The position numbers were made by a program, and so were the translations under genes. This document shows, piece after piece, positions 23,704 through 48,942 of a stretch of 51,166 nucleotides of DNA (position 1 is its first letter; every line of letters starts with the position of its first letter). A model generated the notes under the pieces. The model saw only the letters and a list, made by a program, of their open reading frames with translations. It was not told the origin of the DNA and made no database searches. The stretch is taken from the NCBI GenBank assembly GCA_001797615.1, contig MGPV01000009.1:1-51166 (forward strand), in the 5' to 3' direction. This DNA comes from Deltaproteobacteria bacterium GWC2_65_14. GTDB taxonomy: Bacteria > Desulfobacterota > Deferrimicrobia > Deferrimicrobiales > Deferrimicrobiaceae.

Positions 23704-24119
23704 AGGGGAAGGCGCTCACCCTGCGGACCGACGGGGCGAGCCGGGGGAACCCGGGGCCCGCCGGAGCGGGAGCGGTGATCGAGGCGGACGGAACCCGGGA
23801 CCGGATCGAGATCTCCGAGTATCTCGGGGAGACCACGAACAACGTGGCCGAGTACCGCGCGCTCCTGCTCGCGCTGGAGAAAGCCGAAACGCTCGCCCCC
23901 TCCTCCGTGACGGTCTTCTCGGACTCCGAACTTCTCGTGCGCCAGATCAACGGGGAGTACCGGGTCAAGTCCGAGGGGCTGCGCCCCCTCCACCTCGAGG
24001 CGATCCACCGTTTGCGGCGGTTTCCTTCCGCGCGTATACTGCATGTAGGGCGCGACGGGAACGAGGAGGCCGACCTGCTCGCGAACCGCGCCATCGACGC
24101 TCATTTCCAGAAGGTCTGA
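23700..24119 (+). CDS. rnhA: Ribonuclease HI
   Basis: Cleaves RNA in RNA-DNA hybrids. 139 aa. The catalytic acids are Asp11 (TDGASRGNPG), Glu51 (NNVAEYRALL), Asp75 (FSDSELL) and Asp125 (GNEEADLLAN). The fold resembles the short, handle-less type found in Gram-positive and archaeal proteins. Start inside the stop codon of the zinc-ribbon gene; its stop codon overlaps the 5' end of the RNase P RNA. Confidence 0.94.
   Translation: MKGKALTLRTDGASRGNPGPAGAGAVIEADGTRDRIEISEYLGETTNNVAEYRALLLALEKAETLAPSSVTVFSDSELLVRQINGEYRVKSEGLRPLHLEAIHRLRRFPSARILHVGRDGNEEADLLANRAIDAHFQKV
24012..24040 (+). promoter_or_regulatory. Candidate rnpB promoter inside rnhA
   Basis: TTGCGG, 17-base spacer, TATACT (5/6 match). 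Predicted start about 70 bases before the mature RNase P RNA. Confidence 0.4.
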
Positions 24120-24537
24120 GGAGGCCAGTCGGCCGCCGGCCCCCCTTCGCCTAGGCGACGGGGGGCGGGAGGAAAGTCCGGGCTCCGCAGGGCAGGGTGC
24201 CGGGTAATTCCCGGTGGGGGCGACCCCGAGGACAGCGCCACAGAAAAGATACCGCCCTCCGAAGCGATGGCGAGAGCCATCGCGAAGGAGGGTAAGGGTG
24301 AAATGGCGAGGTAAGAGCTCACCGCGTGCCGGGCGACCGGCACGGCAATGCAAGCCCCACCCGGAGCAAGACCGAATAGGAGGGCGATCCCGGCGGTGAA
24401 AACCGCCGGGGGAAGGGCGGCCCGCCCGAAGCCCTCGGGTCAAGGTCGCTGGAGGCGCGCGGAGACGCGCGCCGTAGAGAAATGGTCGGCCGCGGCGGTT
24501 TACGCCGCGCACAGAACCCGGCTTACGGCCTCCTCAG
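24118..24537 (+). ncRNA. rnpB: RNase P RNA (bacterial class A)
   Basis: Catalytic RNA that processes tRNA 5' ends. The ends pair as GAGGAGGCC / GGCCTCCTC (helix P1). Conserved blocks are present: GAGGAAAGTCCGGGCTCC near the 5' end (24169 onward), GGTAAGGGTGAAATGG in the middle, AGAGAAATGG near 24476 and ACAGAACCCGGCTTA near the 3' end (24511-24525). Length about 418 matches the ancestral type. A run of five T (24542-24546) follows. P1 begins within the rnhA stop codon, so the two genes touch. Confidence 0.97.
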
Positions 24538-24628
24538 CCTGTTTTTCCGTGGAATCGGCTCTTTCAGGTCCGGTAGAACGGTTTTTGGTTTCCGCCCCGC
24601 AAGGACACCGCCGATCCCCATAAAGTTC

Positions 24629-47051: not shown

Positions 47052-47371
47052 GAACTCCCCGGGGCAGGGAGGGCGAAAGGGGCGGGGTTTTCGCCGTCGT
47101 CGCCGTCCATGTCCTTCCCCGGGCGTCTCGGGAGGAGGTGGCGGGCTTCTCCGGGGAAGCCGTCCGGATCCGGTTGACGGCCCCCCCCGTCGAGAACCGG
47201 GCGAACGAGGCGCTCCAGCGGTTCCTGGCCGGGGCGCTCGATATTCCCCGCCGGAGCCTCGGGATCGTCGCGGGCGGGCTCGGCCGCAGGAAGCTGGTCC
47301 GGGTGGAGGGACTCACCCGGGAGGAGTGCCTCCGCCGCCTCGGCCTCACCCCCCCGCGGGATCGCGAATGA
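47048..47371 (+). CDS. yggU: YggU/DUF167 (UPF0235) family protein
   Basis: 107 aa small basic protein. The DUF167 core is clear: VLPRASREEVAGF, LTAPPVENRANEAL and VAGGLGRRKLVRV. Function unknown in the family. GTG start in a GTGA overlap with yggT; the first ~15 residues are poorly conserved. Overlaps the next gene by ATGA. Confidence 0.9.
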   Translation: MRTPRGREGERGGVFAVVAVHVLPRASREEVAGFSGEAVRIRLTAPPVENRANEALQRFLAGALDIPRRSLGIVAGGLGRRKLVRVEGLTREECLRRLGLTPPRDRE

Positions 47372-48318
47372 CGGAACCGATCCGGATCCTGATCAGTTCC
47401 TGCCTGCTCGGGGAGACGGTCCGGTACGACGGGGGGCACAAGCGGGACGGCTTCCTCGTGGATACGCTCGGGGAGTTCGTCGAGTGGGTCCCGGTCTGCC
47501 CCGAGGTCGACTGCGGGCTGCCGACCCCTCGAGAGGCGATGCGCCTGACGGGCGACCCTTCCTCCCCCCGGCTGGTCACGTCGAAGGGGGGGGTCGACCA
47601 CACCGACCGGATGATCCGGTGGGCCCGCGCCCGCCTTCGGGAACTCGAACCGCTGGAGCTTTGCGGCTACATCTGCAAGAAGGACTCCCCGAGCTCGGGA
47701 ATGACCCGCGTCAAGGTATACGGGGGATCGGACATTCCGGCCAGAACGGGGGCCGGGATCTTCACGAAGGCCTTCCTGGGGCATTTTCCCCTCATCCCGG
47801 TCGAGGAGGAGGGGCGCCTCCAGGACCCGGTCCTCCGGGAGATGTTCATCGAAAGGGTGTTCACCCTCAGGCGCTTCCGGGACCTCCTGGCGCGCGACAG
47901 GACCCGGGGAGGGCTCGTCGCGTTCCACACCGACCACAAGCTGCTCCTGTTGTCGCACGGGAGGAAGGGCTACACCGAGATGGGAAGGCTGGTCGCCCGC
48001 GCGAAGGAGCTGCCGACCGCCGAGCTGTTCGACCGGTACCGGAGGCTTCTCATGGAGGCGCTCTCCGCGAAGCCGACCCCGAAGAAATGCTCCGACGTCC
48101 TGTTCCACATGGTGGGCCATTTCCGGAAGATGCTCACCCGGGACGAGAAGGAGGAGCTGCTGGAGGTGGTGGAGCGGTACCGGGAGCGGCGGATCCCGCT
48201 GATCGTCCCGCTCACCCTCTTCCGCCACTATGTCCGGAAGTACCGGGTCGACTATCTCGCCCGGCAGGTCTTCCTCGATCCGCACCCGGCGGAGCTGATG
48301 CTCCGAAACCACGTGTAG
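47368..48318 (+). CDS. DUF523 (TudS-like) and DUF1722 two-domain protein
   Basis: 316 aa. The N-terminal half is DUF523 with conserved cysteines Cys12 (SSCLLG), Cys44, Cys49, Cys99 and Cys103. DUF523 members include TudS, a 2-thiouracil desulfidase using a [4Fe-4S] cluster held by three cysteines. The C-terminal half (about 185-316) is DUF1722, as in E. coli YbgA (FHTDHKLLLLSHGRKGY). The two-domain fusion is common in bacteria. A role in sulfur removal from thiolated nucleobases is an inference from the family. Tied by ATGA to yggU at the end of the maf-yggS-proC operon. Confidence 0.9.
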   Translation: MTEPIRILISSCLLGETVRYDGGHKRDGFLVDTLGEFVEWVPVCPEVDCGLPTPREAMRLTGDPSSPRLVTSKGGVDHTDRMIRWARARLRELEPLELCGYICKKDSPSSGMTRVKVYGGSDIPARTGAGIFTKAFLGHFPLIPVEEEGRLQDPVLREMFIERVFTLRRFRDLLARDRTRGGLVAFHTDHKLLLLSHGRKGYTEMGRLVARAKELPTAELFDRYRRLLMEALSAKPTPKKCSDVLFHMVGHFRKMLTRDEKEELLEVVERYRERRIPLIVPLTLFRHYVRKYRVDYLARQVFLDPHPAELMLRNHV

Positions 48319-48735
48319 CGGAGATTCTTCGGCTCCGAGTGCAACGGGTGCTCCTCCGCCTCGGAGGGATACACTCGGCACGCCTCGTTGCGCGGCCGAC
48401 CGGGACCGGCTCCGCATCCTCGGAGGGGGCGGCTTGCTCCGCCGTCCCGAGGGGGACCCTGCTCCACCCCCGGATCTCCCCCGGGAGTCCGCAAAGACTT
48501 CCATCTCCGCTCGCCCCCCCCTCCTGCGGATGCTGCGCCGGCAACCGGGGACCCCCCCCGCATCGCTGCGGGTCCCCGGTCGCCGGCGAAGCCGGTCACA
48601 GGCGCCCTCACGATGGGGCGCATTACGGGCGCAGCCAGCCGAAGGAGGGGGGAAGAGCGGAGATAAAAAGATTGAACAGGGGGCGGAGGGCGGGCGAAGC
48701 GAAGCCCCCCTCCAAGGCGGCGTAGCCTGTCCCGG
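48319..48735. other. Hairpin-rich non-coding region
   Basis: About 415 GC-rich bases without a credible gene on either strand (short frames are Pro/Arg/Gly-rich and lack ribosome binding sites). Several strong hairpins occur in a row: GCAACG 48341-48346 with CGTTGC 48386-48391, enclosing GTGC/GCAC and CCTCCG/CGGAGG; CCTCGG 48418-48423 with CCGAGG 48447-48452, enclosing GGCGG/CCGCC; an 18-position stem 48537-48554/48570-48587 with one mismatch; GCGCCC 48602-48607 with GGGCGC 48616-48621; and GGAGGG 48685-48690 with CCCTCC 48708-48713. It may be a structured RNA, a non-autonomous mobile repeat or gene decay; sequence alone does not decide. Confidence 0.6.
48504..48663. repeat. 160-base element bounded by 36-base imperfect inverted repeats
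   Basis: Left arm 48504-48539 (TCTCCGCTC...CTGCGCC) and right arm 48628-48663 (GGCGCAG...GAGCGGAGA) are imperfect reverse complements (about 28 of 36 positions with one gap per arm). They enclose two further hairpins. The 9-mer AGCGGAGAT marks the ends and also occurs in direct orientation at 48317-48325, where the intergenic region begins. No target-site duplication is evident. Confidence 0.65.
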
Positions 48736-48762
48736 GCGCCCATTTGGAATCGTGCCGCGGGA

Positions 48763-48942
48763 TCAGCGCAGCGGGCCGAGGGTGATGTCGCCGTACCAGG
48801 CGACCGCCTCCTCGCCGGTGTTGTCGGTGTCGGTCATGATCGCGACGGCCCCGAGGTCCGGCGGATCCTTCCCGAACAGCGCCCGGTAGTCCTCGTAGAT
48901 GTTCCTCTCCTCCCGTTCCGTTTCATCTCCTGTTTCCTCCGC
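48763..48942 (-). pseudogene. Relic: C-terminal fragment of a DUF3047 protein
   Basis: On the minus strand, 60 codons lie in frame directly after the oxidoreductase stop codon. They encode an end matching what I recall of DUF3047 C-termini: a YEDYRALFGKDPP block, then GAVAIMTDTDNTGE and AWYGDI, followed by TGA. The rest of the ~200-residue protein is missing, and there is no start codon or ribosome binding site at a sensible place. The first ~13 codons (Glu/Thr/Arg-rich) are doubtful. Probably left by a deletion that fused its 3' end to the oxidoreductase gene. Function of DUF3047 is unknown. Confidence 0.6.

Follow-up and report, generated by a model that had tools for sequence, protein, structure and literature searches.

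The window, by which we mean the whole stretch of 51,166 nucleotides of DNA that was analysed, carries between two convergent genes a mosaic cluster that is best explained as two non-autonomous REPIN/BIME-like elements, one of type 2 on the minus strand and one of type 1 on the plus strand, accompanied by accessory hairpins. In this reading, to which we assign a probability of roughly 60%, they are members of a lineage-restricted family that probably derives from a form designated type 0, and that would be mobilised in trans as a folded single strand. The elements are REPIN/BIME-like by architecture and by distribution; that they are mobile is something we infer.

A DNA search of the 2.26 Mb genome with positions 48300-48760 as the query returned 90 matches at about 45 places, which together span 48377-48741 of the query, and the limits of the repeat block fall at about 48407/48408 and about 48741. 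Repeats that recur elsewhere in the genome make up the interval 48408-48741 as a mosaic, in which the two elements are arranged head to head with two hairpin modules between them (Table 1). Beyond the DUF3047 fragment lies a zinc-type dehydrogenase gene.

Table 1. Features of the repeat cluster and its flanking genes (window coordinates).
Feature	Position	Strand	Sequence or remark
Upstream gene, 2-thiouracil desulfurase/DUF1722	47368-48318	+	TAG stop 48316-48318
Upstream stop codon, then chance 9-mer copy	48316-48325	+	outside the repeat
Gap between flanking genes	48319-48761		convergent pair: desulfurase/DUF1722 (+), DUF3047 fragment (-)
Type 2 element	48408-48541	-	GGCGCAGCATCCGCAGGAGGGGGGGGCGAGCGGAGATGGAAGTC...CCCCCTCCGAGGATGCGGAGCC
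Hairpin module	48543-48580	.	CCGGGGACC/GGTCCCCGG around CCCGCATCGCTGC
Hairpin module	48601-48621	.	GGCGCCCTCACGATGGGGCGC; on either side of most type 1 copies
Type 1 element	48627-48727	+	GGGCGCAGCCAGCCGAAGGAGGGGGGAAGAGCGGAGATAAAAAG...GCGAAGCCCCCCTCCAAGGCGGCGTAGCC
Type 1 left end	48628-48652	+	GC-GNA-GC motif + GCCGAAGGAGGGGGG arm
Type 1 right end	48703-48727	+	CCCCCCTCC arm + GC-GNA-GC motif (window copy GCGTAGC)
Outer repeat tail	48728-48741	+	common to other copies
C-terminal fragment of DUF3047 gene	48762-48910	-	Pfam E 1e-17, profile end 156-198

A preliminary description of this region had divided it into two modules delimited by copies of a 9-mer, AGCGGAGAT. The copies are located where they had been placed (48317-48325 and 48656-48664 on the plus strand, 48503-48511 on the minus strand), and the window contains four copies versus 0.75 expected; by itself the 9-mer is weak evidence for an element. 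The first of the proposed modules had to be abandoned, given that its bounding copy at 48317 overlaps the TAG stop of the upstream gene and that no repeat copy recovered in the own-genome search reaches 48300-48376; because these matches never cover that stretch, we regard the copy as a chance occurrence. The real units are the type 2 and type 1 elements, each of which is matched elsewhere in the genome. On the other hand, the inverted-repeat arms and inner stem that had been described are present, as imperfect 42-nt arms (48503-48544/48623-48664) and a 23-nt stem of 91% complementarity (48532-48554/48570-48592), and on both strands this part of the window folds far more strongly than its shuffled versions (z -6.6 and -7.3). 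The view that such structure is not that of decayed sequence was likewise upheld. None of the outcomes that the description had named as refuting was obtained: the stretch is not single copy, its type 0 homologues show covariation, and its homologues are not an eroded protein gene, although the DUF3047 fragment is located immediately downstream. Elsewhere in the window an RNase P class A RNA gene is found at 24117-24540 (Rfam RF00010, 260.6 bits).

The type 1 anchor GAGCGGAGATAAAA is present in 43 exact copies in the genome, and when up to 2 mismatches are allowed it yields 56 matches as compared with 8 for the reversed control. Alignment of all anchors delineates a type 1 core of about 101 bp, consisting of the left end GGCGNAGCCAGCCGAAGGAGGGGGG followed by ATGAGCGGAGATAAAAAG, a variable middle, and the right end GCGAAGCCCCCCTCCGAGGCGGCGNAGCC. 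Type 2 has both ends in common with type 1 and a different middle, and is represented elsewhere in the genome by three near-full copies and one partial copy with 93-98% identity to the window copy. At many other places in the genome type 1 forms tandem arrays with a unit period of ~134 bp. Two hairpin modules are repeated around the elements, namely GGGGACC...GGTCCCC with CCCGCATCGCTGC inside, which is seen again next to many further copies, both here and in one related genus, and GGCGCCC...GGGGCGC. A further repeat, CTTGTCCTCCGTAGCAGCGTGAGCAGCGAAGGAGGAGGCGGCG, which contains GTAG, is joined to type 1 elements at loci L081, L099, L068 and L106.

Searches of nine genomes from other genera of the same family with the type 1 core recovered mainly the ends, which in those relatives flank a different and highly conserved middle, GCGCAGTGAGGTAAAGCGCAGCCGTGCGGGTTCAYCGCACGGCGAGCCACGAACGGAG, that defines type 0. 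Common ends with genus-specific middles were observed across genera g4, g6, g7, g9 and g10, and the ends of both type 1 and type 2 are shared with the ~105 bp type 0 element, a few copies of which also reside in the genome of the window. Of the 24 genomes of the taxonomic family, 12 contain type 0, at 2 to about 44 matches each. A scan of a sample of 395 genomes of the phylum with its covariance model, run under filters strict enough to miss weak matches, recovered type 0 in that family alone. The elements form a lineage-restricted family, with type 0 as its probable ancestral form. A type 0 variant in one related genus (L131, L133 and L146) has GAGCGGAG and GAAGCGAAG in common with type 1, and type 1 may therefore derive from type 0, a descent that the shared sequence suggests without proving. 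Some type 0 copies in genera g4 and g10 (flanks L175-L184) lie within a longer common context, GGAAGGCGCACGC...GGGTCCG / GAAGGGGGATCCGGCGCAGCGACTTCCGG, which is apparently an outer inverted repeat. A phage or plasmid origin was also considered and set aside, the window stretch having no match in the phage collection and type 0 none in the plasmid collection. One viral contig of 42.9 kb (IMGVR_UViG_3300038466_000104) does bear a type 0 copy (L308:1-97) at the end of the stretch examined, perhaps reflecting a prophage edge or a misassembly, and in eight viral contigs the 17-mer of type 1 is present but the element is not.

An alignment of 24 type 0 sequences supports a single long hairpin. When a hairpin of 26 pairs is specified, pairing holds in 95.8% of cells and 9 pairs are changed on both sides yet remain paired (2.9 +/- 0.9 when shuffled, with 0 of 500 shuffles reaching 9), the covariation score is 0.117 versus 0.042 +/- 0.006 in shuffles and beyond all 500 of them, and slid versions of the structure used as a control give 34.7-51.1% pairing and 0-3 both-side pairs, figures to be read with the structure having been partly drawn from the same alignment, and hence favoured in both controls, and with the test bearing on type 0 copies while the window holds type 1 and type 2 middles. 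Lying among these covarying pairs are G.A mismatches that have been kept, invariant at alignment columns 3-115, 5-113 and 35-85 (24/24) and found in 23/24 sequences, with one gap, at columns 34-86. The element tips carry GC-GNA-GC (N being any base) on the same strand at both ends. A pattern match recognises it in 40 of the 41 left tips and in 35 of the 41 on the right, and limits of the pattern account for part of the rest. The GNA motif thus has the same sense at both ends and is preserved as G.A mismatches, so that the ends are not simple inverted repeats. In general, tips of the form d(GCGNAGC) fold into mini-hairpins of high stability, and sheared G.A pairs are stable both in DNA and in RNA. 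Because the complementary strand would carry C.T mismatches in place of G.A, and because the plus strand has the better fold of the two in 23 of the 24 copies, these features point to one strand being recognised or stabilised in single-stranded form, whether as DNA or as RNA.

As judged by a simple codon-model gene caller, all element anchors in the genome and 48 of 48 type 0 sites examined are outside predicted genes. The elements often adjoin gene 3' ends, including those of convergent pairs such as the one at the window site, and the genes beside the own-genome copies are unrelated, ordinary housekeeping genes. With respect to their neighbours, type 0 copies are sense with both at 13 sites, antisense to both at 18, between convergent genes at 7 and between divergent genes at 7, and by hand tally type 1 runs antisense to the gene downstream of it in about 26 of 38 cases. 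The C-rich strand carries the element's plus strand at 24 of 33 loci, a figure to which we give no weight (nominal p 0.014, one of several tests, and confounded with gene orientation). At the orthologous site in a genome of another genus (G020), the desulfurase/DUF1722 and DUF3047 genes are adjacent, with 123 bp between their stops versus 444 bp here, and the excess of 321 bp approximates the length of the repeat block. This is suggestive only: the shorter interval could represent the site without the repeat insertion, and across this distance a deletion could also explain it. The DUF3047 orthologue in G020 continues well beyond the part left in the window, and the rest of the gene seems to have been deleted here beside the repeat cluster.

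The usual account of REP and REPIN elements invokes RAYT transposases and GTAG tags. REPINs are REP doublets that form hairpins (Bertels and Rainey 2011, PMC3116915). Like REPINs, the elements described here have two inverted conserved ends of ~25-30 bp around a spacer, ~100 bp in total, and a predicted single long hairpin with compensatory changes, and they make up an intergenic population that numbers dozens in one genome, partly as tandem clusters whose units are nearly identical. Unlike REPINs, they neither flank a RAYT gene nor are linked to one, their ends have no GTAG tag and are not those of the RAYT gene flanks, and the presence of RAYT does not predict that of the element; in addition, invariant G.A pairs frame the covarying pairs, and subtypes with wholly different middles share their ends. 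Neither GTAG nor CGTC, the unpaired tetranucleotides that mark one end of a tagged REP palindrome, is conserved at either boundary among 41 complete type 0 and 28 type 1 copies. BIMEs and GTAG- and CGTC-tagged REPs (PMC3733652, PMC8266576) are similar in that short hairpins of alternating orientation make up intergenic mosaics, with several repeat types per site. Their basic unit, however, is a palindrome of 20-40 bp, whereas ours is a doublet of ~105 bp, and the conserved terminal GTAG or CGTC of the tagged REPs is lacking.

The obvious candidate enzyme is the resident RAYT, yet it is not supported by the evidence here. Genomes of the family encode at most one RAYT-like Y1 transposase (C13:12063-12383, L076, in the genome of the window; L118-L130 in relatives), and among the loci inspected its surroundings mostly look alike across genera, with an epimerase-like gene on one side, indicating that it is apparently vertically inherited. 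It is flanked by different hairpins, GGGACGTTC... / GGGACGTTCYTAA, and the element ends do not occur at the flanks of the resident gene, for which reason a RAYT-borne REP was rejected; likewise, the long inverted repeats that border some known RAYTs have no relation to REPs (PMC3733652, PMC8266576). RAYT is present in 8 of the 12 genomes with the element and in 6 of the 12 without it, and two genomes that are 95-98% complete (G003 and G006) yield 14-22 matches to the element but none of RAYT type. Either RAYT acts in trans on a sequence that it does not itself carry, and some lineages have lost it, or the elements are moved by a different enzyme. As a separate observation, in the genome of the window the hairpins that flank the RAYT also border a few of the arrays, and the RAYT-flanking sequence GAACCGGGACGTTCCTAAGAAGT occurs directly beside some repeat arrays (L037 near 600, L042 near 290 and L051 near 365). 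The genome also encodes an ordinary IS200/IS605-type TnpA (C6:10653-11018, L075) that adjoins a TnpB-like gene on the other strand.

The preliminary description had proposed a structured RNA or a MITE-like element. In the broad sense the latter term still applies, the elements being short, non-coding, multicopy and intergenic with inverted ends of ~24 bp, with covarying pairs among homologues, and within the 70-300 bp range of bacterial MITEs such as ERIC/RU, NEMIS and Nezha (PMC3733652, PMC2759123). A classic MITE, that is, an insertion sequence of the DDE-transposase type that was reduced by deletion and is mobilised by that transposase through its terminal inverted repeats, is unlikely. Inspection by eye of the flanks of the 41 complete type 0 copies revealed no flush target-site duplication, and because of this the REPIN/BIME-like reading fits better. 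Moreover, as compared with the 15-30 bp terminal inverted repeats of DDE-type MITEs, the arms here are inverted but interrupted by the conserved, strand-specific G.A mismatches of the same-sense GNA; no autonomous partner or insertion sequence with the same ends was found, and no transposase recurs among the genes neighbouring the own-genome copies. Marginally less likely still is a dispersed structured RNA, either a small RNA or a cis-acting mRNA element, with a regulatory role and only incidental copying. The strong fold, the covariation and the strand-specific non-canonical pairs are what would be expected of a conserved RNA; against it are the mixed orientations given above, which bear no sign of selection for a sense transcript, the unrelated housekeeping neighbours, and the half of the family's genomes that do without the element. 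A structured RNA of known family was discarded as a candidate, with no match to Rfam covariance models at either the gathering or a relaxed threshold.

The exclusively intergenic location, often beside gene 3' ends and at a convergent site in the window, would also suit an element used by the host in the manner of BIMEs, for mRNA 3'-end protection, as a bidirectional transcription stop, or as a binding site for nucleoid or topoisomerase proteins. We consider this improbable as the primary explanation, in that it leaves the spread, the arrays and the lineage-specific subtypes unaccounted for and sits poorly with the patchy presence among relatives, but host use may coexist with mobility. Lastly, the units carry GGAGG-N-ATG with an overlapping ATGA start/stop, and by hand count the ATGA of successive units is in frame in the 134-bp arrays, as a tandem coding repeat would require. 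This reading has scarcely any likelihood and was dropped: because unit variants differ by one base (119 vs 120 nt windows) the frame is broken, the ATG is AAG in the window and CTG, TTG or GTG elsewhere, and single copies have no conserved stop.

Returning to REPIN/BIME-like elements mobilised in trans, we consider that they are probably moved as folded single-stranded DNA. The plus strand would be exposed by replication or transcription and recognised as a folded single strand, and a trans-acting transposase of HUH/Y1 type would copy or move the element without target duplication; tandem arrays could then grow through recombination between units. A bolder proposal, which we advance tentatively and with the odds against it, is that of a miniature mobile family defined by its strand-specific single-strand fold (covarying Watson-Crick pairs framed by invariant G.A pairs, with GC-GNA-GC tips), whose mover is neither the resident RAYT nor a known REP transposase. 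In general, these genomes harbour an abundant REPIN-like architecture that has no tag and is uncoupled from the RAYT of the same genomes, and its strand-specific structural signature singles out the bases to test, making concrete within one bacterial family the question of what moves untagged REP-like elements. Finally, copies in the genome of the window are often found at contig ends, and the elements may therefore help to account for the fragmented assemblies of these genomes.
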